A DNA stretch of 64,000 nucleotides from Neisseria yangbaofengii. GTDB lineage: Bacteria; Pseudomonadota; Gammaproteobacteria; Burkholderiales; Neisseriaceae. Below the pieces are notes generated by a model. That model made no database searches, was not told the origin of the DNA, and saw nothing but the letters and a program-made list of their open reading frames with translations. This document shows, piece after piece, positions 50,640 through 64,000 of this stretch. How positions within the stretch are numbered: the first letter of the stretch is position 1; each line of letters opens with the position of its first letter. The position numbers were made by a program, and so were the translations under genes. The stretch is from the NCBI RefSeq assembly GCF_014898075.1, contig NZ_CP062976.1:434001-498000 (forward strand). The letters run 5' to 3'.

Positions 50640-52922
50640 ATGGTGCAAATCTGTAATGGCAAAACGATCTATCACGCCCATTCGGCTGAAAATCTTCCCG
50701 AATCTCAATGGCAAACCTTAAGCGGCCATCTTTCCCAAGTCGGCGAGATGGCGGCGGGGTTTGCCGGTTTTTTTGGTGCGGGGGAAATCGCCCGATATAC
50801 CGGGCAGCTGCACGATTTGGGCAAATATACGGAAGCGTTCGATAAACGGTTGCACGGTGGCCCTTCTGTTGATCACGCTACGGCGGGAGCCAAAATTGCG
50901 GCCGATCGCTGGGGCGCAGCAGGCAAGCTGATGGCTTTCTGTATTGCCGGCCACCATGCCGGTTTAGCCAACGGCGATGGCGAGGGTGATAACCGCCGCA
51001 CCTTGGCGCAACGCCTTGCCTTGGCTTTCGGCAAAGACATTCCCGATCTTGATCCCGTTTGGCAACAGGAAATCGCTCTGCCGGAAAAGCTGCCCGCACC
51101 ACCCTTGAAGGCCGATGCCCATCACAAATCGTTTTCCTATGCCTTCTTTACCCGCATGCTGTATTCCTGCCTGGTAGATGCCGATTTTCTCGATACCGAA
51201 GCCTTTTATGCTTCTGCTGAAAACAAAGCCATACAACGCGGCGGCCATCCCGATTTAAACGCCTTACAACAGCGCTTCAACGCCTTTATTGAATCTTTCA
51301 GACGGCCTGCCGAGCAGGCTCCGGCGACCCAAGCCGAACAACGCCGCGCCGCGCTTAACCGTCTGCGCAGCCACATTCTCGACCATGCCGTCGCCCAAGC
51401 GGGTGAGCAGCCTGGTCTGTTTACCCTTACTGTGCCCACCGGCGGCGGTAAAACCTTCACCTCGATGGCGTTTGCCTTGGAACACGCCAGACGCCACGGT
51501 ATGCGCCGCGTGATTTACGTCATTCCCTTTACCAGCATCATCGAGCAAAACGCCGCCGAATTCCGCAAAGCCTTCGGCGATTTGGGTGAAGCCGCCGTAT
51601 TGGAACACCACAGCACCTTCGACGACAGCAAGCTCAAAGACCGGCACAGCAAAGACAAGCTGCGCCAAGCCTCCGAAAACTGGGATATGCCCGTGGTGGT
51701 AACCACCGCCGTGCAGTTTTTCGAATCGCTGTTTGCCGACCGCTCCTCGCGCTGCCGCAAGCTGCACAATATCGCCGGCAGCGTGATTATTCTCGATGAA
51801 GCGCAAATGCTGCCGCTCAACCTGCTGCTGCCCGTGATGCAGGCCATCAAAGAGCTGGCGCGAAACTACCGTTGCAGCGTGGTGATGTGCACCGCCACCC
51901 AGCCCGCCGTGCAGGCCGAACACGGTTTTTACCGCGGCTTTGAAAACGTACGCGAAATTGCCCCGAATCCGACCGCACTTTTCGAACAACTGCGCCGAAC
52001 CACCGTACAACATATCGGCCAGCAAACCGATGCCGACCTATTGGAAAAGCTCGGGCAACACCGGCAAATACTCATCATCGTCAACAACCGCCGCCACGCC
52101 CGCAGCCTGTATGACAGCGCCAAACAGTTTGACGGCGTGTTCCACCTTACCACCCTGATGTGCGCCAAACACCGCAGCCAAATGCTGGAAACCATCCGAG
52201 GCCGTCTGAAAAACGGCGAATCCTGCCGCGTGATTGCCACTTCTTTAATCGAAGCAGGCGTAGATGTCGATTTCCCGCTGGTGATGCGCGCCGAAGCAGG
52301 GCTGGATTCCGTCGCCCAAGCCGCCGGACGCTGCAACCGTGAAGGCAAAAGGCTGCCTGAAGAGAGCTTTGTCTGGATATTCCAGCCCGAAGCGCAATGG
52401 AAAGCCCCCGCTGAACTCGGACTGCTCTCCGGCGTGATGCGCTCTGTAGTGCGGCAGCATGCTAGCGATTTACTGTCTGTGGAGGCTATTACTGATTACT
52501 TTAGCGAGGTCTACCAGCTCAAAGGTGCCGAGCTGGACTGGCGCCAAATCCTCGCCATGCACCACAACGCAGGCAGCAGCCTCAACTTTCCCTTTCAAAC
52601 CATCGCGGCAAAGTTCCGCATGATCGAAACCCATATGCAGCCGCTCATCATCCCGTTCGACGATGAAGCAGAACGTCTGATCGACAGCCTACGCCACGCC
52701 GACCAAATCGGCAGCCTGTTGCGCAAACTCCAGCCCTACACCGTGCAAATCCCCGAAAGCGCGTTAAATGCCTTGCTGAAAGCCGGACGCATCGAAGCCA
52801 TCAACGAACACACTTTCGGCAAGCAGTTTTACAGCCTGATTGGGTTGGATTTGTATGATGAAGTGGCGGGGTTGAGTTGGGAGGATGAAGGGTTTTTAAA
52901 GGCGGAGAGATTGATTTTATAA
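50640..52922 (+). CDS. cas3: Type I-C CRISPR helicase-nuclease Cas3
   Basis: 760 residues. N-terminal HD nuclease: H30, the HD pair at 58-59 (LHDLGKY), H79 and the HH pair at 105-106. SF2 helicase: Walker A PTGGGKT at 266-272, DEAQ box at 386-389, motif III CTATQP, and motif VI QAAGRCNR at 560-567. Cascade recruits it to unwind and degrade target DNA. The ATG at 50640 has GTGGAG upstream and starts MVQICNGKTI; a TTG at 50571 is rejected. GC-rich with internal DUS (51296, 52200). Its TAA stop is the first codon of the 16-base sequence mirrored upstream of cas5. Confidence 0.95.
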   Translation: MVQICNGKTIYHAHSAENLPESQWQTLSGHLSQVGEMAAGFAGFFGAGEIARYTGQLHDLGKYTEAFDKRLHGGPSVDHATAGAKIAADRWGAAGKLMAFCIAGHHAGLANGDGEGDNRRTLAQRLALAFGKDIPDLDPVWQQEIALPEKLPAPPLKADAHHKSFSYAFFTRMLYSCLVDADFLDTEAFYASAENKAIQRGGHPDLNALQQRFNAFIESFRRPAEQAPATQAEQRRAALNRLRSHILDHAVAQAGEQPGLFTLTVPTGGGKTFTSMAFALEHARRHGMRRVIYVIPFTSIIEQNAAEFRKAFGDLGEAAVLEHHSTFDDSKLKDRHSKDKLRQASENWDMPVVVTTAVQFFESLFADRSSRCRKLHNIAGSVIILDEAQMLPLNLLLPVMQAIKELARNYRCSVVMCTATQPAVQAEHGFYRGFENVREIAPNPTALFEQLRRTTVQHIGQQTDADLLEKLGQHRQILIIVNNRRHARSLYDSAKQFDGVFHLTTLMCAKHRSQMLETIRGRLKNGESCRVIATSLIEAGVDVDFPLVMRAEAGLDSVAQAAGRCNREGKRLPEESFVWIFQPEAQWKAPAELGLLSGVMRSVVRQHASDLLSVEAITDYFSEVYQLKGAELDWRQILAMHHNAGSSLNFPFQTIAAKFRMIETHMQPLIIPFDDEAERLIDSLRHADQIGSLLRKLQPYTVQIPESALNALLKAGRIEAINEHTFGKQFYSLIGLDLYDEVAGLSWEDEGFLKAERLIL

Positions 52923-52935
52923 TTTAACTTCTTTA
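52920..52935 (-). repeat. 16-bp sequence complementary to the pseudo-spacer upstream of cas5
   Basis: TAATTTAACTTCTTTA begins at the cas3 stop codon and is the exact reverse complement of 54683-54698. It lies 34 bp before the first start codon of the cargo segment. Read on the minus strand as a protospacer, the adjoining trinucleotide in the PAM position is TTA, one base from the TTC usual for type I-C. Confidence 0.8.
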
Positions 52936-52968
52936 TAAGTTTATTTTTTATAAAGATCGGAGTAGTAT

Positions 52969-53013
52969 ATGAGTCATAACAGTTTTTATGAGGAATATCT
53001 ATACGATGAGTAG
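52969..53013 (+). CDS. Possible 14-codon leader peptide
   Basis: ATG at 52969 with GGAG ten bases upstream encodes MSHNSFYEEYLYDE and stops at 53011-53013 (TAG). The stop overlaps the start of the membrane protein gene (GATGAGTAG), an arrangement that suggests translational coupling. The peptide is acidic and has no recognised family. It could be chance. Confidence 0.35.
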   Translation: MSHNSFYEEYLYDE

Positions 53014-53515
53014 CGACGTCAATCCATTTCAATGGACGCCCAAAAAGTACTTGATAAGTGTAACAATCTACTTGGTGATATGGTTACTTGTGCTTTCAGG
53101 CTGTCTTTTCTATTTGAAATTTGGTAATCAACTGGATTTTTTTAATAATTTTGAAACATTATTGGGTTGTATTTTAATTGGAGGTATAGGAGGAAATGTT
53201 TATTGTTTAAGAGCGATTTATTTGCAAGCTTGCGCTAAAAAAGAATGGGATGAAAATTGGATTGTTTGGTATTTGTTACGGCCACTACTAAGTATAGTTG
53301 TTGGAGGGATTAGTTATCTTTTTATAAAAGCGGGATTAGTACTATTCAACTCTTCAGGACAATCTGAAATCAACCAATTAAGCATTTGGTCTTTGGCTTT
53401 TTTAAGCGGACTGAATGTTGATAACTTTATAAAGAAAATAGAAAGCATTGGTGAAACAGTTTGGGGGATTTCTCCTTCAAGAGTTTCCAATAAAAAAGGA
53501 GCGCCAAATGAATGA
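53006..53515 (+). CDS. Multi-pass membrane protein, cargo in the cas operon
   Basis: 169 residues from the ATG at 53006 (another in-frame ATG at 52988 has a poorer position). Hydrophobic segments lie at about 14-36 (VTIYLVIWLLVLSGCLFYL), 45-65, 80-105 (YLLRPLLSIVVGGISYLFI) and 120-135, so three or four TM helices, followed by a soluble C-terminal tail. I do not recognise the family. The gene is AT-rich and DUS-free, unlike cas3 and cas5. It overlaps the MBL gene by 8 bp, so the pair is an operon. Small TM proteins paired with an enzyme are common as membrane-damaging effectors in defence systems; that role is inference. Confidence 0.8.
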   Translation: MSSDVNPFQWTPKKYLISVTIYLVIWLLVLSGCLFYLKFGNQLDFFNNFETLLGCILIGGIGGNVYCLRAIYLQACAKKEWDENWIVWYLLRPLLSIVVGGISYLFIKAGLVLFNSSGQSEINQLSIWSLAFLSGLNVDNFIKKIESIGETVWGISPSRVSNKKGAPNE

Positions 53516-54596
53516 TTTTTTTGAAATAGATTTTTTAGATGTTGAAGCTGCAAAAAGTGGGGATGCTATTACTATTCGTTATTGTAAGAATGGAGTGCAG
53601 TCTATACATGTTGTAGATGGTGGATTTAAAGGTCCTGAAGATGGGGAAGGTACAGGAGATAAGGTCATTCAGCACATTAAGAAATACTACGGAACCAATA
53701 AAATTAATCGAGTAGTTGTAACACACCCTGATGGAGATCATGCTGGCGGTTTACGAAAGGTTCTAGAGAATTGCGAAGTTGATGAATTGTGGATGCTTAA
53801 GCCTTGGGATTATACTGATGAATTAATTGAACGATTTGCCAGATTACGCAGTGAAGAACGATTAGCTGATAAACTGAAAGAATGTTATCCAAATATAGCA
53901 GCATTAGAAGAAATTGCTAATCGTAGGGGGATTCCTATTAAAACGCCTTTTCAAGGTGCGAAAATTGGGGAGTTTACTGTTCTCGCTCCAACAAAGGACA
54001 GATACCTTGATTTAATTGAGCAATCCAAGAAAACTCCCGAAGTTAAATCTGCGCAAGAAAGTTTGGCTAGGTTGTCAGCAGTACTTGAATCTGTTAAGAA
54101 TTTTGTCCGTGCAGCATGGGGAGATGAAAATCTCTCAAGCGAACCGACTAGTGCGGAAAATAACATGAGTATTGTTCAATATGCTGAATTAAATAATCAG
54201 AAGATTATGCTAACAGGAGATGCTGGACGTGAAGCATTAGAAGAAGCTAAAAATTATTTAGTTGATAATTTATATGTTTCTCTTCCCGGTATTGATTATT
54301 TTCAAGTTCCTCACCATGGTTCTCGAAGAAATATCTCTTCCGAATTACTTGATGAAATTTGTGGTTCTAAATTGCCTTTATGGGAAAAAGGGACAAAGAA
54401 TTTTACTGCGGTAATTAGTTCGGCTAAAGAGGATAAAAATCATCCTCGGAAAGCTGTTGTAAGAGCCCTAATACATCGTGGAGCATCAGTGCTTACAACT
54501 GAAGGGGCAACTCTACGTTGTTCTAGAGCGGCCCCTGCTAGAGATGGATGGGTGTCTGCAACTCCAGAGAGCTACCCTGAAGATCAAGAAGACTGA
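53508..54596 (+). CDS. MBL-fold hydrolase (ComEC-type beta-lactamase domain), cargo in the cas operon
   Basis: 362 residues from the ATG at 53508 (AAAGGAG upstream, overlapping the TM gene stop). Metal-binding motif THPDGDHAGG gives H73, D75, D77 and H78, the HxDxDH variant seen in ComEC/Rec2-type MBL domains; LTGDAG and VPHHGSRR supply the remaining ligands. A possible helical insert lies at about 110-185. There are no TM segments, so it is soluble. Substrate unknown: nucleic acid or a nucleotide/phosphodiester is typical. AT-rich and DUS-free. A Haemophilus-type uptake signal follows ten bases after the stop. Confidence 0.85.
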   Translation: MNDFFEIDFLDVEAAKSGDAITIRYCKNGVQSIHVVDGGFKGPEDGEGTGDKVIQHIKKYYGTNKINRVVVTHPDGDHAGGLRKVLENCEVDELWMLKPWDYTDELIERFARLRSEERLADKLKECYPNIAALEEIANRRGIPIKTPFQGAKIGEFTVLAPTKDRYLDLIEQSKKTPEVKSAQESLARLSAVLESVKNFVRAAWGDENLSSEPTSAENNMSIVQYAELNNQKIMLTGDAGREALEEAKNYLVDNLYVSLPGIDYFQVPHHGSRRNISSELLDEICGSKLPLWEKGTKNFTAVISSAKEDKNHPRKAVVRALIHRGASVLTTEGATLRCSRAAPARDGWVSATPESYPEDQED

Positions 54597-54605
54597 AATA
54601 GCTTG

Positions 54606-54634
54606 AAAAGTGCGGTCAGTTTTTCCGTTATTTT
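54606..54634 (+). other. Haemophilus-type DNA uptake signal (USS)
   Basis: AAAGTGCGGTCAGTTTTT contains the full 9-bp Pasteurellaceae core AAGTGCGGT and the downstream AT tracts of the extended consensus (GTTTTT, then ATTTTTT one helical turn later). It is immediately followed by TAGTCGTCTGAAAA, which resembles the AGGTCGTCTGAA dialect of another Neisseria group. Confidence 0.65.
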
Positions 54635-54650
54635 TTAGTCGTCTGAAAAC

Positions 54651-54682
54651 CTTTTCGCACTTAACCGTGCGTGGATTGAAAC
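54651..54682 (+). repeat. Degenerate type I-C CRISPR repeat (pseudo-repeat A)
   Basis: 32 bases: a CGCAC-TTAACC-GTGCG hairpin followed by TGGATTGAAAC. The last 11 bases match the canonical I-C handle (GTGGATTGAAAC) and share 9 of 11 bases with the handle of this locus's own repeats (TGTGTTGAAAC). It is not part of the main array. Confidence 0.7.
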
Positions 54683-54706
54683 TAAAGAAGTTAAATTAAT
54701 GAGCAG
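54683..54706 (+). ncRNA. 24-nt pseudo-spacer, possible CreA/CreR-like guide
   Basis: It starts directly after GAAAC of pseudo-repeat A. Its first 16 bases, TAAAGAAGTTAAATTA, are perfectly complementary to 52920-52935, at the head of the TM/MBL segment. It is shorter than the 33-37-nt spacers of the array. A guide RNA role is inferred. Confidence 0.4.
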
Positions 54707-54738
54707 GTTCGCCTCCCTTCGGGGAGGTGTGGGTTAAC
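54707..54738 (+). repeat. Degenerate CRISPR-like repeat (pseudo-repeat B)
   Basis: 32 bases with the CCTCCC-TTCG-GGGAGG hairpin and TGTGGGTTAAC tail, comparable to the array repeat (GCCGCC-TTCG-GGCGGC and TGTGTTGAAAC). More diverged than A. It lies in the 5' leader of cas5, ending 21 bases before its ATG. Confidence 0.5.
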
Positions 54739-54759
54739 AAAATCATAGGAGAACAAAAA

Positions 54760-55434
54760 ATGAATCGGGTACGCCTACACATTTGGGGCGATTACGCCTG
54801 TTTTACCCGTCCGGAAATGAAGGTGGAGCGGGTGTCTTACGATGTCATCACGCCGTCGGCGGCACGCGGGGTGTTGGCGGCGGTGCATTGGAAGCCGGCT
54901 ATCCGCTGGGTGATTGACCGCATTTATGTATTGAAGCCGATCCGTTTTGAATCGGTTCGGCGTAATGAATTGGGCGGCAAGATTTCGGAGAGCAAGGTCA
55001 GCGGGGCGATGCGGCGCAAGAGCGTGGAGGGTTTGTACACGCTGATTGACGACGACCGCCAACAGCGCGCGGCGACGGTGCTGAAAGATGTGGGTTATGT
55101 GATTGAAGCCCATGCGGTGCTGACGGCTAAAGCGGGCAGGGACGATACGATTACCAAGCATATCGAAATGTTTAAGCGGCGGGCGCTAAAGGGGCAGTGT
55201 TTCCAGCAGCCGTGCATGGGCGTGCGCGAGTTTCCGGCGCATTTTGCCTGGGTGGACGATAACGGCGTTTTCCCTGAATCATGCCTGTTTGAAAGCGAAG
55301 CCAACCGTGATTTAGGCTGGATGTTGCACGATATTGATTTCGACCATGGCAATCTGCCGAAATTTTTCCGTGCCGAAATGAAAAACGGGGTAATCGAAGT
55401 GCCGCCGTTTTACGCTGAGGAGGTGAAAGCATGA
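54760..55434 (+). CDS. cas5c: Type I-C Cas5 (Cas5d), crRNA-processing endonuclease
   Basis: 224 residues from the ATG at 54760 with AGGAG upstream; an in-frame GTG at 54727 lies within pseudo-repeat B. VRLHIWGDYACFTRPEMKVERVSYDVITPSAARGVL is the Cas5d RAMP opening. In type I-C this protein replaces Cas6: it cuts the repeat and stays on the 5' handle as part of Cascade. Its stop overlaps the cas8c start (ATGA). Confidence 0.94.
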   Translation: MNRVRLHIWGDYACFTRPEMKVERVSYDVITPSAARGVLAAVHWKPAIRWVIDRIYVLKPIRFESVRRNELGGKISESKVSGAMRRKSVEGLYTLIDDDRQQRAATVLKDVGYVIEAHAVLTAKAGRDDTITKHIEMFKRRALKGQCFQQPCMGVREFPAHFAWVDDNGVFPESCLFESEANRDLGWMLHDIDFDHGNLPKFFRAEMKNGVIEVPPFYAEEVKA

Positions 55435-57347
55435 TTTTGGCTTCACTGGCGTGTTATTACCGCCGCTTGGCAACGCAAAACGATGATTTCGGCAACCCGA
55501 AAGTGCCGCCTTACGGCTTTAGCGAGGAAAAAATCGGCTGGATTTTGGTGTTGGATAAAGAAGGCCGTCTGCAAGATGCGGTGCCGAATTTAACGGCGGA
55601 TAAAAAGCCGCAGCCGAAACTGATGAGCGTGCCGCGCCCTGAAAAGCGCACGTCGGGCGTTAAGCCGAATTTTCTGTGGGACAAAACCGCTTATGCCTTG
55701 GGCGTGGAAGCCAATAAAGACAAGGCGCAGGCGAAAACAGAACCTGTGGTGCCGTCTGAAAAAAACTTCGAGGCGTTCCGGCAATATCATTTGGAGTTGT
55801 TGCAACACGAACAAGACGAAGGCTTGCAGGCGCTCTACCGCTTTTTGCAACACTGGCAGCCTGCGCAGTTTGCCGATTATCCGTGCCTGTCTGAAACGCC
55901 GGATGCCAATGTGGTGTTTGCTTTGGATAAGCCTTCTGCCCTGATTCACAAGCGCGAAGCGGCGCAAACATTGTGGGCAGGCCGTCTGAAAAGCGACGAG
56001 GCCGAGCAGGGCTTGTGTTTAATCAGCGGCGAAGAAGCGCCGATTGCGCGACTGCATCCGGCGATTAAAGGCGTGTTCGGCGGACAGAGTTCGGGCGGAT
56101 CGATTATTTCGTTCAATAAAGAATCCTTTGCTTCGTTTGGCAAAGAGCAAGGGGCGAATGCGCCGGTATCGGAAGTGTCGGCTTTCGCCTATACCACCGC
56201 GCTGAACTATCTGCTGCGCCGCGAAAACGGCCATTGCCTCACCATCGGCGATGCCAGCACGGTGTTTTGGGCGGAAGCCGCCGACAGCGAAACCGCCGCC
56301 GCTGCCGAAGATTTCTTTGCCGACATCATGACCCCGCCCGATGACGAGCAGCAAAGCCAAAAAGTATTCGGTATTTTGGAGCAAATCGCCAAAGGCCGCC
56401 CCTTGCAGGAAATCGCGCCCGATCTGTCGCCCGATACCCGCTTTTATATCTTAGGCTTGGCACCGAATGCGGCGCGGATTTCCATCCGATTTTGGCTGGA
56501 TACCACTTTTGGGCAATTGGCTGTCAATATGGCAAGGTATCGGCAGGATTTGAAAATCGAACCGCCCGCATGGCGCGGCAAAGACCCTTCTGTGTGGCGG
56601 ATATTGTTGGAAACCACGCCCAAGCGGAAAGGTGCAGACGGCCGTCTGAAAAAGTCCGACAGCAAAGATATTCCGCCGCAATTGGCAGGCGAATATATGC
56701 GGTCGATTTTAACGGGTAGGCCATACCCTAAAACCATGCTGTCGCGAATGATTGGACGGATACGTTCAGACGGCCATATTACCGGACTTCGGGTTGCCGT
56801 TATTAAGGCAGTATTAAATCGTAACAATCTTCACACTCAGGAGATTTCTATGGAAGTGAATAGCCAAAAAGACAATATCAAATTACCCGTTGGGTTGAAC
56901 AAAGATGAAACGGATATTCCGTATCGTTTGGGGCGTTTGTTTGCCGTTTTAGAAGTGGCACAGGCTTCTGCACTAGGAAATTTGAATGCAACGGTGCGGG
57001 ATAAATTTTACGGCAGTGCTTCTACTTCGCCACAATATGTTTTCCCGCGTTTACTTGAAAACTATAACAACCATATCGCAGTGTTGCGTAAAGGAAGGGG
57101 CGCCGAATGGGTTAAAAACCCAAAATCAACGGCAAACTGGTTGGAGAGGGAAGTAGGAGAAATTTTGCAGGAGTTTTTTTCGGGCATGCCGTTTCCGCGC
57201 CATTTGTCGTTAGAAGAGCAGGGGCGTTTTGTAGTGGGCTATTACCATCAAAAATATACTAAACAGAAAGAAGCCCCAGAAGATATTGGTTCTGCATTAA
57301 ATAATGAGAGCGATGCAGAAGAAATTGAAGAATCCCAAGGAGAATAA
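55431..57347 (+). CDS. cas8c: Type I-C large subunit Cas8c (Csd1)
   Basis: 638 residues. It begins [19 protein letters not shown], typical of Csd1, and contains [20 protein letters not shown], which is conserved in the family. It recognises the PAM and starts R-loop formation in Cascade, then recruits Cas3. The ATG overlaps the cas5 stop by 4 bp. The 3' third (from about 56800) is visibly more AT-rich than the rest and encodes the Cas11 region. Internal DUS at about 55981, 56638 and 56764. Confidence 0.94.
56850..57347 (+). CDS. cas11c: Internal-start small subunit Cas11c within cas8c
   Basis: Inside cas8c, in frame, CAGGAG lies eight bases before ATG 56850, starting [15 protein letters not shown] and giving a 165-residue helical product that equals residues 474-638 of Cas8c. 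Internal translation of Cas11 from cas8 is established for type I-C systems, including one from Neisseria lactamica. The strong Shine-Dalgarno sequence in the middle of a gene is the direct evidence here. Confidence 0.75.
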
Positions 57348-57349
57348 AC

Positions 57350-58213
57350 ATGTCCATCCAAAACCGCTATGAATTCGTTTACTTTTTCGACGTAACCAAC
57401 GGCAATCCCAACGGTGACCCCGACGCCGGCAATATGCCGCGCCTTGATCCCGAATCCAGCAAAGGCTTGGTTACCGACGTGTGCCTGAAGCGCAAAATCC
57501 GCAATTTTGTCGAACTCGCCAGTGAAAATCAGCCGGGCTACGAAATCTACGTGAAAGACAAAGGCGTGCTGAACCTGCAAAACAAACGCGCCTATGAAGC
57601 CTTGGGTATCGAATCCGAAGCCAAAAAACTGCCCAAAGACGAAGCCAAAGCCCGCGACATCACCGCTTGGATGTGCAAAAACTTCTTCGATATCCGCACC
57701 TTCGGCGCCGTGATGACCACCGAAGTCAACAGCGGCCAAGTGCGCGGCCCCGTGCAACTGGCGTTCGCCCAATCCATCGACCCCATCGTACCGTTGGAAA
57801 TCTCCATTACCCGAATGGCTGTAACCAATGAAAAAGACCTCGAAAAAGAGCGCACCATGGGGCGCAAATACATTGTTCCTTATGCGCTTTATAGAGTACA
57901 TGGTTTTATTTCAGCTAATCTAGCTGCTAAAACTGGCTTCTCCGACAACGATTTAGCGAAATTATGGGAAGCTCTGCAACTGATGTTTGAGCACGACCGC
58001 TCCGCCGCCCGCGGCGAAATGGCGGCGCGCAAACTCATCGTATTCAAACACGACACCGCCCTCGGCAGCCTGCCAGCGCACAAATTGTTCGACGCCGTTA
58101 AAGTCGAGCGCGTGAGCGGCGAAAGCGGCACGCCTGCATCGGGTTTTGCCGATTATCAAATCCGTGTCGATTCAGACGGCCTCAACGGTGTGAGCGTGGA
58201 AGAATTGCTGTAA
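57350..58213 (+). CDS. cas7c: Type I-C backbone subunit Cas7 (Csd2)
   Basis: 287 residues. [25 protein letters not shown] is the Csd2 signature; [13 protein letters not shown] and DIRTFGAVM follow. It polymerises along the crRNA spacer. A two-base gap separates it from cas8c. Around 57870-57960 a short AT-rich patch with unusual codon choice interrupts GC-rich sequence, a sign of past recombination. A DUS is at 58170. Confidence 0.95.
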
Positions 58214-58879
58214 TGCCCGATGTGCAAAATTTTGCAACAAACCCACCGCTTGCAGGCGCGGGGGGACGGGATTTGCCCACCGTTTCCCTTTCCGCCCTGC
58301 AACACTACGCTTTTCTGCCCGCGCCAATGCGCGTTGATTCACAACGAGCAGGCGTGGGCGGAGAACTATCTGACCGCGCAGGGGCGTTCGCTGCACGAGC
58401 GGGTGGATTCGGGCGAGCCGGAAACACGCAAGGGCGTGCGTTTCGAGCGCAGCGTGCATGTGTCGGCGCAGCGGCTGGGCATCAGCGGTATTGTCGATAT
58501 GGTGGAACACGATATTCAGACAGGCCGTCTGAAACCGGTGGAATACAAACGCGGCAAGCCCAAACCCGAGCCGTTCGACGAAATCCAGCTTTGCGCACAG
58601 GCGCTGTGTTTGGAAGAGATGGCCGGACAAACCATCACCGAGGGCGCGCTGTGGTATATGCAAACCCGCCACCGCGTGCCGGTAGCGTTTTCAGACGGCC
58701 TTAGAACGCAAACGCTGACGGTTATCGCCCAAGTGCGCGAACTATTGGTAAGCGGGCAAACTCCACCGCCGGTGTACGGCAAACGCTGCAAAGCCTGCTC
58801 GTTGGCGGAAATCTGCCAGCCGAAGTTGTTGGAGAAGGATAGGTCGGTGGGGTATGTGGAGGGGTTGTTTGGGGAGTGA
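58213..58879 (+). pseudogene. cas4: cas4 with a one-base frameshift near its 5' end
   Basis: The TAATG overlap with cas7 sets the ancestral start at 58213; this frame reads ...TVSLSALQHYAF, the normal Cas4 opening. At TTTTCTGCCC (58311-58320) one extra base shifts the frame, and the rest (CPRQCALIHNEQAWAENYL to GYVEGLFGE) continues in the frame that has an ATG at 58220. All four iron-sulfur Cys (CPRQC region and CKACSLAEIC) and the nuclease core (GIVDMVE, PVEYKRGK) survive. Either cas4 is inactive, or a protein starting at 58220 keeps the core with an altered N-terminus, or the base is a sequencing error. Cas4 helps choose PAM-flanked prespacers. Confidence 0.75.
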
Positions 58880-58924
58880 GTATTACTCATTGTATAACTT
58901 ATTAAGTTTGAGCAGGAAACATAT

Positions 58925-60073
58925 ATGGTTAACGCTGATAAACACTATTCTGCATTAACAATTGATACTTCAATTTTTGAAAGAAATGGATTGAAGTTAA
59001 ATAAAGGATTGTTAGCTCAATTGCATCAATTTAAAGATAACCCAATAAATTTAGTTTTAAGTGATATTGTGTATTTAGAACTTAAGTCTCATCTAAATAA
59101 AAAGGAGAAAGAGACAAAAAATAAAATTGACTCGGATTTAAATGATGCTTCTGATTATCTGAATTGTTGTATAGATGATATAAAGAGAATTAAGTCGTTA
59201 ATTAAGATGGATTATGAGGCTGGGGCTATATCCAATTTAATATTGGAAGACTTCATAAAAAAAAGTGGGATTGAAATTATTAAAAGTGAGGAATATTGTG
59301 AGATAAAATCTTTGATAAATATGTATTTTCTACATCATGCACCTTTTAAAGAATCAGGTAATAAAAAGAATGAATTTCCAGATGCTATTGCCTTATTATC
59401 ATTACAGTATTGGGCAGAATGTAATGATAAGAATTTATTAGCTGTTAGTGCTGACAATGACTGGAAAGATTTTTCAGAAGGTAAAGACAATATTGACGTT
59501 ATTGATGACTTAGCAAAAGCAATGGATGTATTGAACAGGCAAAGTCAAGCCTTGGACTCTATTGTTCGTGAAATACAATCGGATTTGTTAGAAAATCAAA
59601 ATAGTGAGATTTTTAAAAGAATATATTCTGTTATTGAAGATGATGTGAATATTTTTGAAATTGAGGCTGTATCAGCATATAACTACTATATTGATGATGA
59701 ACAAGTAAATTTGATAGATGTCAATATTCTTAAGGAAAATGATGGGGAGGAATTTAAAATATATATTGTTGATATTAACTGTTATGAAATTATCATCAGT
59801 GTTGCATGTGAAGTTTTGTGTAATATTGAAGCAACTTTTAATTTTTCAGTCTGGGATTCAATTGATAAGGAATATGTATCATTGGGTATGACAACAAAAA
59901 CGATAGAAACATCATATAAGACGGATGTTTTAGTTCATTTGCATGGAAACTTCTTAGATGGATTGCAAAATATGAATATTGATGAGATAGAAGTTATTGA
60001 TTTCTTAGGCGTGGTTGATATAGGAGAAATTTCTCCTTTTAACAACGATGAAGATTACTTTACGAATTATTAG
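58925..60073 (+). CDS. PIN-domain ribonuclease-like protein, cargo between cas4 and cas1
   Basis: 382 residues. An N-terminal PIN domain (about 1-200) has the acidic quartet D14 (LTIDTSIF), E52 (YLELKSHL), D153 (NEFPDAIALL) and D177/D179 (AVSADNDW). A long coiled-coil-like segment around 60-125 and a 180-residue acidic C-terminal domain of unknown family follow. PIN proteins of this shape (PIN_12/DUF4935-like) are probable RNases. No antitoxin gene is adjacent. It is the most AT-rich gene in the window and lacks DUS. AGGA lies upstream of the ATG. A toxin or abortive-infection role within the cas operon is inference. Confidence 0.82.
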   Translation: MVNADKHYSALTIDTSIFERNGLKLNKGLLAQLHQFKDNPINLVLSDIVYLELKSHLNKKEKETKNKIDSDLNDASDYLNCCIDDIKRIKSLIKMDYEAGAISNLILEDFIKKSGIEIIKSEEYCEIKSLINMYFLHHAPFKESGNKKNEFPDAIALLSLQYWAECNDKNLLAVSADNDWKDFSEGKDNIDVIDDLAKAMDVLNRQSQALDSIVREIQSDLLENQNSEIFKRIYSVIEDDVNIFEIEAVSAYNYYIDDEQVNLIDVNILKENDGEEFKIYIVDINCYEIIISVACEVLCNIEATFNFSVWDSIDKEYVSLGMTTKTIETSYKTDVLVHLHGNFLDGLQNMNIDEIEVIDFLGVVDIGEISPFNNDEDYFTNY

Positions 60074-60137
60074 ATGTAGATAACATGACTTTCAGGTAGT
60101 CAAAAAGTACGGTCAAAATCAAGGGAGTTTTTCAACC
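60074..60137 (+). other. Junction between PIN gene and cas1 with degenerate uptake signals
   Basis: TTTCAGGTAGTC resembles the reverse complement of the Eikenella-type DUS (AGGCTACCTGAA), and AAAAGTACGGTCA is one base from the Haemophilus USS core. GGGAG precedes the cas1 start. Confidence 0.4.
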
Positions 60138-61151
60138 ATGCGCAAGCTGCAAAACACGCTGTATATTACCACGCAGGGCAGTTATCTGCATAAGGAGCGG
60201 GAAACGTTGGTGGTGGAGCTGGAGCGCAAAAAGCTGGCGCAGTTGCCGGTGCATTCTATCGGGCATATTTTCTGTTTCGGCAATGTGCTGGTGTCGCCGT
60301 TTTTGATGGGGTTTTGTGGCGAAAACAATGTGAATCTGGCGTTTTTTACCGAAAACGGGCGTTTTTTGGGGCGGTTACAGGGGCGGCAGAGCGGCAATGT
60401 GTTGCTGCGGCGGGCGCAATATCGGCTGTCGGAGCACAATCCGGTGCCGATTGCACGGCATATTATTGCGGCGAAGATTCAGTCGGGCAAGCGGGTGTTG
60501 CAGCGGCGGTTGCGCAATCACGGCGAACAGGAGGAGGTGCAGGCGGCGGTGTCGGCGCTGAATTTCAGTTTGCAGCAGTTGAAGCGGGCGGAAAGTCTGG
60601 AGCTAATCCGCGGGATTGAGGGTGATGCGGCGGCGCGTTATTTCGGCGTGTTCCGCCATTTGCTGCGCGAAAACAGCGGTTTTGCTTTTGATGGTCGGAA
60701 CCGCCGCCCGCCGCGCGACGGGGTGAATGCGCTGCTGTCGTTTGTGTACAGTATTTTGGGCAAGGATATCAGCGGTGCGCTGCAAGGCGTGGGTTTGGAC
60801 CCGCAGGTGGGTTTTCTGCACGCCGACCGCCCGGGGCGCGACAGTTTGGCACAGGATATTCTGGAGGAATTCCGCGCGTGGTGGGCGGACAGGCTGGTGC
60901 TGTCGCTGATTAACCGCGGGCAGGTTAAGCCGCAGGATTTTGTTGCCGAGGCGGGCGGGGCGATGAATCTCAAGCCAGAGGCGCGTAAGTTGCTGTTTCA
61001 AACGTTGCAGGCGAAAAAGCAGGAAAAGATTGTGCATCCTTTTTTGCAGGAAGAGGTGGCCGTCGGCCTGCTGCCGCATATTCAGGCCATGCTGCTGGCG
61101 CGGCACCTGCGCGGCGATTTGGCGGAATATCCGCCGTTTTTGATGCGTTGA
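60138..61151 (+). CDS. cas1: CRISPR integrase Cas1 (type I-C)
   Basis: 337 residues. The N-terminal beta domain starts MRKLQNTLYITTQGSYLHKE; the metal-binding Glu/His/Asp set can be placed at GIEGDAAARYF, GFLHADRPGRDSL and the following DILEEFR. With Cas2 it integrates new spacers at the leader end. GC-rich, same character as cas5 and cas7. Separated from cas2 by a strong hairpin. Confidence 0.95.
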   Translation: MRKLQNTLYITTQGSYLHKERETLVVELERKKLAQLPVHSIGHIFCFGNVLVSPFLMGFCGENNVNLAFFTENGRFLGRLQGRQSGNVLLRRAQYRLSEHNPVPIARHIIAAKIQSGKRVLQRRLRNHGEQEEVQAAVSALNFSLQQLKRAESLELIRGIEGDAAARYFGVFRHLLRENSGFAFDGRNRRPPRDGVNALLSFVYSILGKDISGALQGVGLDPQVGFLHADRPGRDSLAQDILEEFRAWWADRLVLSLINRGQVKPQDFVAEAGGAMNLKPEARKLLFQTLQAKKQEKIVHPFLQEEVAVGLLPHIQAMLLARHLRGDLAEYPPFLMR

Positions 61152-61214: not shown

Positions 61215-61508
61215 GTGCTGATGCTGATTACTTACGATATTGCTTTGGACGACCCGCAAGGCCAAGCGCGCCTGCGCCGTATCGCCAAACATTGCTTGGA
61301 CTACGGCGTGCGCGTGCAATATTCGGTGTTTGAGTGCGATATTGCACCCGACCAATGGGTTGTTTTAAAAGAAAAATTGTTGAAAACCTATAACCCCGAA
61401 ACCGACAGCCTACGCTTTTACCATTTGGGCAGCAAATGGCGGCGCAAGGTAGAACACCATGGCGCAAAAGCGGCGGTGGACGTGTTCCAAGATACGCTGA
61501 TTGTGTGA
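61215..61508 (+). CDS. cas2: CRISPR integration protein Cas2 (type I-C)
   Basis: 97 residues from GTG 61215 (GGGGA seven bases upstream), giving MLMLITYDIALDD; starting at ATG 61221 would shorten the first strand. LITYDI, RRIAKHCLDYGVRVQYSVFEC and a ferredoxin-like length match Cas2. It forms the Cas1-Cas2 complex. Confidence 0.94.
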   Translation: MLMLITYDIALDDPQGQARLRRIAKHCLDYGVRVQYSVFECDIAPDQWVVLKEKLLKTYNPETDSLRFYHLGSKWRRKVEHHGAKAAVDVFQDTLIV

Positions 61509-61698: not shown

Positions 61699-64000
61699 TC
61701 AGCCGCCTTCGGGCGGCTGTGTGTTGAAACTTCCGCAGCCGCATGACAAGGTCAGGTTCGTGGTTCAGCCGCCTTCGGGCGGCTGTGTGTTGAAACTGTT
61801 ACTTTGTGTGTCCCATTTTTGGGGGTAGGTGTCAGCCGCCTTCGGGCGGCTGTGTGTTGAAACTCACGAATGTCGTTGTCGCTGCCTTGTGCCCGCTCTC
61901 AGCCGCCTTCGGGCGGCTGTGTGTTGAAACTTGCCCAGTATTTGAAGGCCAAAGCCGCCAATGATCAGCCGCCTTCGGGCGGCTGTGTGTTGAAACACGG
62001 CCACGGTAGCAGAGACCAGCTATGCTTATATCAGCCGCCTTCGGGCGGCTGTGTGTTGAAACTAAAACCGTTGGCGATAGAGCTTACAGATACGCTCAGC
62101 CGCCTTCGGGCGGCTGTGTGTTGAAACTTCGTCTATCCATGCAATATCTGCCGTTGTGCAGTCAGCCGCCTTCGGGCGGCTGTGTGTTGAAACCTATTCA
62201 AAGATTTGACAACCTGCTTTTGGGTAGTCAGCCGCCTTCGGGCGGCTGTGTGTTGAAACTGCTGGTGCAGGAAGCCCGTCTGAAAGCCTTGTTTCAGCCG
62301 CCTTCGGGCGGCTGTGTGTTGAAACACGGAACTGCCTGTCTATCAGGAACATAAATCGAATCAGCCGCCTTCGGGCGGCTGTGTGTTGAAACACGGAACT
62401 GCCTGTCTATCAGGAACATAAATCGAATCAGCCGCCTTCGGGCGGCTGTGTGTTGAAACGTTTGTTACCAACCACCACACACGGCAGGGGATAATCAGCC
62501 GCCTTCGGGCGGCTGTGTGTTGAAACATTAATATATTAACGGAAGTATAAATAAAACAGTGTCAGCCGCCTTCGGGCGGCTGTGTGTTGAAACGGAACTG
62601 ACTGAGCAACACTGCCTGCAAGTCTTCTTCAGCCGCCTTCGGGCGGCTGTGTGTTGAAACCCGAAGTAAACGACAAAATTATTCCGAACCTGCCCTCAGC
62701 CGCCTTCGGGCGGCTGTGTGTTGAAACGCCGTCTCGGTGCGGATATACACCGCCTTGCGTGTCAGCCGCCTTCGGGCGGCTGTGTGTTGAAACTTTAACA
62801 ATTAGGAAAAACCCGCGTTACGTGGGCTCAGCCGCCTTCGGGCGGCTGTGTGTTGAAACGACGGCTACGGGTTCCCCGGGCGTAACCGCCCGTTTCAGCC
62901 GCCTTCGGGCGGCTGTGTGTTGAAACGATGTATACACATGCTCGGGTCGGTGCATAGACTGCATCAGCCGCCTTCGGGCGGCTGTGTGTTGAAACCGAGA
63001 ACGCCGAGCGAAAAAGCGGAGATAAGCAATTCAGCCGCCTTCGGGCGGCTGTGTGTTGAAACATACGGTTCTCGAAAGTGTAGATACTATCCTCCTGCTC
63101 AGCCGCCTTCGGGCGGCTGTGTGTTGAAACTCTATGGACTTATCCAGCACTGCACTGTTCGGTATCAGCCGCCTTCGGGCGGCTGTGTGTTGAAACTCGG
63201 CGATGTGGTGCTGACCCGTGTCGGTACACTCAGCCGCCTTCGGGCGGCTGTGTGTTGAAACCAGTTGCCGTATTTGCTGTCGTAATCTTCCGGATTCAGC
63301 CGCCTTCGGGCGGCTGTGTGTTGAAACACTGCCTTAGAATATATGCTTACCCAACAGCATGCTGTCAGCCGCCTTCGGGCGGCTGTGTGTTGAAACAACC
63401 CATCAACAGTATCTGCGCAAAAGTGGTCTTCAGCCGCCTTCGGGCGGCTGTGTGTTGAAACTGTAGTGTTGACCGAGACGAGTGGGTACACCGCATCAGC
63501 CGCCTTCGGGCGGCTGTGTGTTGAAACACTTGTCAGACTGCCCTGCGGGTGTTCGGCGACCTCAGCCGCCTTCGGGCGGCTGTGTGTTGAAACAGGTTGG
63601 TTGCGAACGGATACAAGGCGGCCAGTTCATCAGCCGCCTTCGGGCGGCTGTGTGTTGAAACCGCATAATCATAGCCTAGCAGTCCGCATAAGCTGTCTCA
63701 GCCGCCTTCGGGCGGCTGTGTGTTGAAACTGCTTACCCAACATCCGCGCCTGATTGACAGCAACGTCAGCCGCCTTCGGGCGGCTGTGTGTTGAAACAAT
63801 GGAGTATCCTGTAGCCTGTGTTGACTCTGACAATCAGCCGCCTTCGGGCGGCTGTGTGTTGAAACGGACATAGCGTTTACTGATTTGCAAATCGCAAACG
63901 ATCAGCCGCCTTCGGGCGGCTGTGTGTTGAAACCAGGTCAACCAGAATGCCTGATGAATGCCAAAAATTCAGCCGCCTTCGGGCGGCTGTGTGTTGAAAC
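61699..64000 (+). CRISPR. Type I-C CRISPR array, 35 repeats and 34 spacers in view, continues past the window
   Basis: 32-nt repeats built of TCAGCCGCC-TTCG-GGCGGCTG plus TGTGTTGAAAC, all identical by eye, the first at 61699-61730 and the 35th ending exactly at base 64000. The palindromic stem-loop and handle fit processing by Cas5d. Spacers are 33-37 nt. Those at 62326-62360 and 62393-62427 are identical. Since even the 35th repeat is not degenerate, the trailer end is not reached. Confidence 0.99.

Follow-up and report, generated by a model that had tools for sequence, protein, structure and literature searches.

A CreA-like mini-CRISPR predicted to silence exchangeable cargo between cas3 and cas5 in type I-C operons of Neisseria and relatives

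CreTA modules have been described for the type I-B system of clustered regularly interspaced short palindromic repeats (CRISPR) (PMC8501985, PMC9458426) and, beside cas3, for types I-F (PMC10097628) and I-E (PMC12055562). In CrePA, a CreA-guided effector represses the gene of a KilA-N protein toxin and anti-CRISPRs lift this repression, as summarized in a review (PMC12737573), and CreR, a CRISPR RNA (crRNA)-like RNA, brings the effector to a promoter that it matches in part (PMC12737573, PMC13131331). The consulted sections of that review leave open whether such systems occur in other CRISPR types or with other cellular targets (PMC12737573). Here we analyzed a stretch of 64,000 nucleotides of Neisseria yangbaofengii (NZ_CP062976.1, positions 434,001 to 498,000; hereafter the window, in whose own coordinates all positions are given), which holds a type I-C cas operon with two protein-coding genes and a short repeat-spacer-repeat unit between cas3 and cas5. 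We consider it very probable that this unit, at 54651-54738, is a CreA-like mini-CRISPR that guides the I-C effector to silence the genes between cas3 and cas5 (the cargo), which would be released upon effector loss. The elements concerned are as follows.

50640-52922, plus strand: cas3 of type I-C (PADLOC Cas3c, 757 bits), stop codon at 52920-52922
52895-52923, plus strand: weak promoter-like site TTTAAA-17-TATAAT (consensus scan, 10 of 12), overlapping the target
52920-52935, minus strand: target (protospacer-like site) of the pseudo-spacer, complementary to 54683-54698 at 16 of 16 bases
52936-52938, minus strand: position of the protospacer-adjacent motif (PAM), reading TTA on this strand
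53006-53515 (likely start), plus strand: cargo gene 1, a 169-aa hydrophobic protein, predicted from hydropathy peaks to be a membrane (TM) protein
53508-54596, plus strand: cargo gene 2, a 362-aa protein of the metallo-beta-lactamase (MBL) fold, PADLOC phage-defence candidate PDC-M48B
54608-54616, plus strand: AAGTGCGGT, presumed uptake word at the 3' end of the cargo cassette
54651-54682, plus strand: psi-R1, degenerate repeat ending in the 5'-handle TGGATTGAAAC
54683-54706, plus strand: psi-S, pseudo-spacer of 24 nt, whose first 16 nt match the target
54707-54738, plus strand: psi-R2, degenerate repeat with the hairpin kept and the handle less well kept
54760-55434, plus strand: cas5 (cas5c/d), by Pfam and PADLOC

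A preliminary description of this DNA had placed psi-R1, the spacer-like stretch and psi-R2 correctly, and the 16-nt perfect complement that it reported, running from the first base after the repeat and located at the cas3 stop, was confirmed. Specifically, TAAAGAAGTTAAATTA (54683-54698) is the exact reverse complement of 52920-52935, so that the guide-target match spans spacer bases 1-16 from base 1 on, and the target lies 70 bases from the likely ATG of the TM gene (53006). No other site in the 64-kb window matched more than 9 leading guide bases, and the longest leading match in 2000 Markov-generated sequences with the length and composition of 52881-54700 was 13, versus the 16 observed. 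The description of the flanking units as repeat-like held for their predicted hairpins (-7.5 kcal/mol for psi-R1 and -15.3 for psi-R2, with -17 for the true array repeat) and for the last 11 (handle) bases, 9 of which are kept in psi-R1 and 7 in psi-R2, but held less well over the full length, where an ungapped alignment to the array repeat gives only 16 and 13 identical bases of 32, respectively. As in CreTA, a spacer-like stretch is thus flanked by two degenerate repeats, with the handle preserved in the first. The DNA of the mini-array gave no match in the plasmid collection.

Related loci were searched with one genome per species, so that cargo was compared between species, and are designated below by L numbers. 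The genus set comprised 46 genomes. A Cas5 hit was obtained in 28, and in 15 of these, counting the window's own genome, identity was at least 79%. Seventeen of the 28 entered the scoring; the others were L048, a fragment at a contig end, and 10 genomes whose best stretch was only 41-45% identical. For the wider set, 84,980 species genomes were scanned and the best 80 of at least 573 confirmed Cas5 relatives were used. One named relative, Neisseria weixii, has a Cas5 that is 98% identical to that of the window. After duplicate removal, 91 loci were scored uniformly; L045, L094 and L113 had no cas3 upstream in the DNA read, leaving 88 loci, of which only Cas5 and Cas3 likeness was demanded and not the full type I-C gene set. 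The locus score is the number of guide matches at ten core positions (1-5 and 7-11) to a minus-strand target near cas3 flanked by TTC, TTT or TTA.

The distance between cas3 and cas5 was 178 nt or less in 45 of the 88 loci and 240 nt or more in 43 (the gap of L046 rests on a cas3 match ending at residue 673). A repeat handle upstream of cas5 was found in 35 of the 43 long-gap loci and in none of the 45 short-gap loci. A target scoring at least 8/10 was present in 29 of the 35 handle loci (29 of the 43 long-gap loci and 29 of all 88, the window included). All ten core positions matched in 20 of these 29, and 26 of the 35 handle loci reached at least 9/10, which corresponds to the matching seen in CreTA. 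The PAM triplets over the 29 loci were TTC (21), TTT (5) and TTA (3; the window, L054 and L069), and, counted from the cas3 stop, the PAM-side edge of the target lay at -2 to +29 nt in 27 loci and at +86 and +236 in the remaining two. Matched pairs occurred, among others, in Neisseria, Rodentibacter, Haemophilus seminalis, Aggregatibacter, Mannheimia, Chelonobacter, Cardiobacterium, Lysobacteraceae, Methylotenera, an Acidobacteria bin, Rhodobacteraceae, Pseudovibrio, Shinella (8 of 10), Rhizobiales and Geobacter.

When guides were swapped between loci (1032 swaps among guides differing at four or more core positions), 5 reached 9 matches and none reached 10. Shuffled guides reached 9 or 10 in 142 of 35,000 cases, and 11-mers slid along the same mini-arrays reached 9 in 8 of 2205 cases and never 10. 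In 20,000 random reassignments of guides among the 35 loci, the number of loci scoring at least 9 had a mean of 1.9 and never exceeded 9, versus 26 observed. A chance match is ruled out by these guide-swap and shuffle controls across loci together with the simulations in the window.

The mismatches that do occur are regularly spaced. In 28 distinct pairs, positions 6 and 12 had 22 mismatches each and the remaining positions up to 11 had 0-4 each; 4 each were also counted at positions 13 and 14, on which the selection had not drawn. The difference between positions 6 plus 12 and positions 13 plus 14 (44/56 versus 8/56) gave a Fisher p of about 6e-12, a value that ignores relatedness among the loci. 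For haloarchaeal CreA, positions 1-5 and 7-11 were reported to be needed and 6 and 12 to be dispensable, with a TTC PAM, in the consulted part of that study (PMC8501985). As far as sequences can tell, the every-sixth-base pattern is the footprint of Cascade pairing, with positions 6 and 12 as the bases that Cascade does not read. Guide and target evidently covary across loci. For example, core positions 7 and 9 differ between the window and L041x, and each guide-target pair is still 10/10; this comparison comes from a first scoring round (23 loci, 20 distinct pairs) that was superseded by the uniform scoring. The preliminary description had made its reading hang on guide and target changing together in other loci, and they do, in 20 of 29 loci at all ten core positions.

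These data also bear on whether the unit could be the remnant of an earlier CRISPR array, its spacer self-targeting, without any function today. The repeats are degenerate, the matches of L035x, L038 and L111 are weak (8/10), and cargo exists without any mini-array, as expected of decay. However, 20 of the 29 loci have all ten core positions intact despite the drift at positions 6 and 12, a pattern suggesting that pairing is still under selection, and we regard a decayed array as very improbable.

The cargo of the window consists of the TM and MBL genes. The MBL protein matched PDC-M48B over its full length (query 1-362, 510.6 bits, PADLOC) and contains the motifs HPDGDH and PHHGS, and its partner matched no model, the 169-aa TM protein having no family match in Pfam or PADLOC. 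MBL matches at E ≤1e-30 were found in 4 of 369 genomes of the class, with the window's own among the four. In the three others (L134-L136), the MBL gene adjoins an open reading frame (ORF) that looks hydrophobic by eye and is in one of them 50% identical to the window's TM protein over 96 residues, and the roughly 4 kb read around the MBL gene contained no convincing cas match. Given these pairs away from convincing cas matches, the TM-MBL pair gives the impression of an independent defence module that was inserted into the cas operon. We also noted by eye a 14-codon ORF at 52969-53013 (MSHNSFYEEYLYDE), a possible leader peptide, upstream of and overlapping the likely TM start at 53006.

Other cargo stands at this place in the relatives, and the phenomenon is, judged from these loci, wider than in the preliminary description. 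Among the 29 paired loci, the gap exceeded 1.6 kb in 11, six had an ORF of the DUF2188 type and 12 had short inserts of 272-490 nt. SIR2-HerA was found in L054 (Rodentibacter) and, by 75-87% protein identity to L054 or to each other, in L038 and L069; Gabija GajA and GajB were found in L037. Cargo related to type III restriction-modification was present in L060 (restriction subunit by PADLOC; the methylase ORF is short) and, by identity to L060 and L094, in L035x, L036x and L041x, L094 itself (no cas3 in reach) having matches to a type III methylase, DrmD, PDC-S02 and AbiU/AIPR. The insert of L062 has three ORFs, one encoding an NA37 protein, and that of L070 has one gene without family assignment. 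The DUF2188-type ORF was assigned by Pfam in L065 and by sequence likeness in the other five loci, among which the frame of L033 looks broken. Such proteins, about 76 aa long, are the main cargo behind a matched guide in L043, L053, L063, L065 and L066, and are candidates for guarded toxins. Of five peptides tested from the short inserts, those of L076, L099, L107 and L114 had a 19-residue hydropathy window of at least 1.6, and that of L044 peaked at 1.54.

The comparison of the window with L054 is instructive with respect to the exchange of cargo. The target and the first 20 guide bases are identical in both, homology breaks at 52951 and resumes at 54606, and SIR2-HerA stands in L054 in place of TM-MBL. 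In addition, the SIR2-HerA cargo of L054, L038 and L069 is accompanied by three different guides. Since the same switch occurs with different cargo and the same cargo with three guides, cargo and switch are separable. The identity of the 16-bp pair in Rodentibacter and the uptake words at the cassette end in the window and L054 could also be taken to mean that the 16-bp inverted match marks the ends of an inserted mobile cassette or a recombination scar, with the repeat-like hairpins incidental. The preliminary description had named an identical cassette at unrelated loci as favouring a mobile element; the same pair with different cargo was indeed found, yet at the same cas3-cas5 position, and the mobile reading is not favoured. 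Terminal repeats would not spare every sixth base or keep a PAM, the match sits exactly after the conserved crRNA handle between two hairpins, and the pairs vary from locus to locus yet match within a locus. Hence a mobile element or scar seems highly unlikely as the explanation of the match, and a CreA-like guide is preferred.

With regard to the uptake words, GCCGTCTGAA, which we take to be the Neisseria uptake word, occurs 68 times in the 64 kb versus 0.12 expected, and AAGTGCGGT, presumably the Haemophilus-type word, occurs twice versus 0.83 expected, which is near chance. At the 3' end of the cargo cassette (54606-54655, and likewise in L054), words of the Haemophilus and Neisseria types lie close together, the Neisseria-type word of the window having one mismatch; such paired words might help exchange between Neisseria and Rodentibacter. 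In the cassette ends of 43 loci (150 nt), words that we take to be DNA uptake sequence (DUS)-like (at most one mismatch), Haemophilus-type and Actinobacillus-type were found in 11, 3 and 2, respectively.

From the anatomy of the unit, the guide-target match, the covariation, the every-sixth-base pattern, the PAM bias and the cargo swap, all of them read directly in the compared sequences, we infer transcription, processing, binding, repression and release, including release by anti-CRISPRs. Cas5 would process the transcript of the mini-array, and the resulting crRNA-like guide would load into the I-C effector (Cas5-Cas8-Cas7). Since pairing is limited to about 11-16 bases beside the PAM position, the effector would bind 52920-52935 but would not license Cas3 to destroy the site; once bound, it would block transcription into the genes between cas3 and cas5. 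If the effector were inhibited or lost, for instance through an anti-CRISPR, the cargo would be freed as a back-up or suicidal defence. The slot would be exchangeable, with the guide-target switch kept in relatives that carry other defence systems or short toxin-like ORFs. By analogy, a mechanism like that of CreTA and CrePA is most likely.

Several observations weigh against this reading. The PAM-position triplet of the window, TTA, lies outside the PAMs reported for Neisseria I-C, which are TTC and TTT for N. lactamica in the consulted part of the study (PMC10865793), and the window's own spacers gave one 48-base phage match at 85%, too little for PAM inference. The pairing rule of I-F CreA is a different one, according to the part of that study used here (PMC10097628). 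The preliminary description placed the target in a likely promoter, and the best promoter-like site of the region (10/12) does overlap it; promoters were however scored by consensus only, eight sites were found versus 5.6 (standard deviation 2.5) expected, and a 9-of-12 site near the target in 18 of the 29 loci has no control. The loci are related to one another, and our counts, like the p-value, ignore this. Six loci with a handle had no matching site near cas3 and were counted as failures (L059, L068, L089, L106, L115 and L132), and eight of the 43 long-gap loci had no handle (L034, L042, L046, L056, L057, L067, L071 and L128), so that 14 of the 43 lack a near match. Given these eight, cargo is not always controlled by the switch; the handle-less cargo includes Thoeris (L057), a GmrSD-like gene (L034, 92% identity to L059), OLD-like genes (L067, and L042 by identity) and Dsr2 (L071, by identity to L068). 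In L128, which the scoring took as handle-less, the handle has the variant form TTGAAGC; by eye, the guide of this locus matches 9/10 at a TTC-flanked site just after cas3, which was not counted. The 8/10 scores of L035x, L038 and L111 are singly within reach of chance. In the first scoring round, a foreign guide fitted the local target of L069 better than its own guide did, and equally well in L062, L065 and L035x. Finally, in L068 (Cricetibacter, Dsr2 cargo; L068:9781-10001), the 10/10 match of the guide is to a TTC-flanked site immediately in front of the mini-array and not before Dsr2, some 3.6 kb away from cas3, an arrangement that suggests autoregulation.

Autoregulation of the CreR kind would mean that the guide mainly lowers expression of cas5, cas8 and cas7 downstream, with the cargo a passenger on the same transcript; the two functions could coexist. 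CreR is known in types I-B, I-E and V-A, as far as the consulted text goes (PMC13131331). In the window, the target precedes both the cargo and cas5, nothing resembling a terminator was found from 52860 to 54800, the L068 target directly precedes the mini-array, and an ORF scan found no credible peptide in the short inserts of L086, L096 and L129. On the other hand, 17 of the 29 loci have a large insert (11) or a DUF2188-type ORF (6) between target and mini-array, and the defence cargo varies. That no gap of 178 nt or less contains a handle is a weak argument, since only 5 of these 45 gaps reach 100 nt and most have no room for the unit, which raises the odds of autoregulation. Taken together, plain CreR is less likely than cargo silencing, and we rate it as a rather unlikely main function.

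In cargo silencing, the type of cargo may indicate what the release is for. SIR2-HerA and Gabija are phage-triggered systems and are not known as constitutive poisons. For these two cargoes, a guard function, namely a second line after anti-CRISPR attack, therefore seems likelier than simple addiction, and for the restriction-modification cargo either guard or addiction is possible. More broadly, we lean towards the view, with less confidence than for the unit in the window, that type I-C operons of Neisseria, Pasteurellaceae and relatives have an exchangeable slot in which a co-evolving CreA-like guide puts whole innate defence systems under Cascade repression. CRISPR would then act as sensor and guard, and anti-CRISPRs would release a second, unrelated defence. 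The slot would probably have arisen from short CreTA-like modules, which are still present in Alphaproteobacteria and Geobacter, with cargo swapped between genera and the switch kept. If this is true, CRISPR-guarded toxins are extended from single small toxins to whole antiviral systems, with a wiring rule for layered defence by which innate back-ups are kept silent by adaptive immunity for as long as the latter is not under attack. The combined sequence signature of handle, seed (positions 1-5 and 7-11), PAM and location behind cas3 could be used to find Cascade-controlled genes in other genomes, and phages of these hosts that carry anti-CRISPRs are predicted to meet a second defence.

The remaining features of the operon in the window, with the genes assigned by Pfam and PADLOC, are as follows.

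55431-57347, plus strand: cas8c
57350-58213, plus strand: cas7c
58220-58879, plus strand: cas4
60138-61151, plus strand: cas1
61215-61508, plus strand: cas2
61699-64000 (window end), plus strand: main CRISPR array, 35 exact copies of a 32-nt repeat

Membership in type I-C is thus supported by cas3, cas5c, cas8c, cas7c, cas4, cas1, cas2 and the array, all within the window. A second cargo slot lies between cas4 and cas1 (58880-60137 in the window). Gaps of 319-2709 nt were found there in 26 loci, largely of Neisseria and Pasteurellaceae, nearly all with varied genes, and 56 other loci have gaps of 118 nt or less. The contents include PIN_12 in the window and two genes identified by eye, one for a nucleotidyltransferase (L035x) and one GmrSD-like (L062), and handle-like words are present in some of these gaps. 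The PIN_12 gene of the window (58925-60073) has 84% protein identity to a Bibersteinia trehalosi gene in the same cas4-cas1 slot (L071:14034-15173), where it occurs beside unrelated, Dsr2-like cas3-cas5 cargo.

With regard to earlier work, the preliminary description had proposed a protein-effector version of CreTA in type I-C. Protein-coding genes do lie behind the matched site, but a protein-effector version is not new, being already known as CrePA from the review as consulted (PMC12737573). The wording "type I-C" or "I-C" is absent from PMC12737573, PMC8501985, PMC9458426 and PMC10097628. Among the matches listed in the open-access literature, titles and abstract openings name neither a type I-C version nor a repressed defence-system cargo; subscription papers and preprints lay outside this scope, and priority of the type I-C finding is not established.

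The locus resembles CreTA of I-B haloarchaea, I-F Acinetobacter and I-E Citrobacter rodentium, as these appear in the consulted parts of the papers cited above, in having degenerate repeats and a spacer-like guide in the cas locus and a partly matching site (PAM-flanked in CreTA, next to TTA in the window), which in CreTA is at the toxin gene and in I-F and I-E beside cas3. In CreA, the Cas5-binding bases are kept in the first repeat and lost in the second, as far as the consulted text describes (PMC9458426), and the handle retention of psi-R1 and psi-R2 (9 versus 7 of 11) resembles this. Unlike CreTA, the window is of type I-C with the slot between cas3 and cas5, and it has a two-gene protein operon, replaced in relatives by whole defence systems, and not only a small toxin. 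The gene repressed in CreTA is a small toxin, in the defining cases an RNA toxin; the cargo here encodes proteins of about 169 and 362 aa, and we therefore do not file the locus as CreTA in the strict sense. With CrePA it shares a protein-coding gene behind a CreA-matched site, but its cargo varies between loci, and no KilA-N or toxin family was among the Pfam hits of the window cargo. Unlike in CreR, the target precedes the cargo and not cas5 directly, TM-MBL lying in between, although a polar effect of target occupancy on cas5 is possible. PDC-M48 is shared through the full-length PDC-M48B match and the hydrophobic-looking ORF beside the MBL genes of L134-L136; in contrast to these relatives, the MBL gene of the window lies inside a cas operon, behind a guide-matched site. 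The new aspect, well supported by comparison of the sequenced loci, is a putative CreA-like switch of type I-C whose defence cargo is exchangeable and often comprises several genes.

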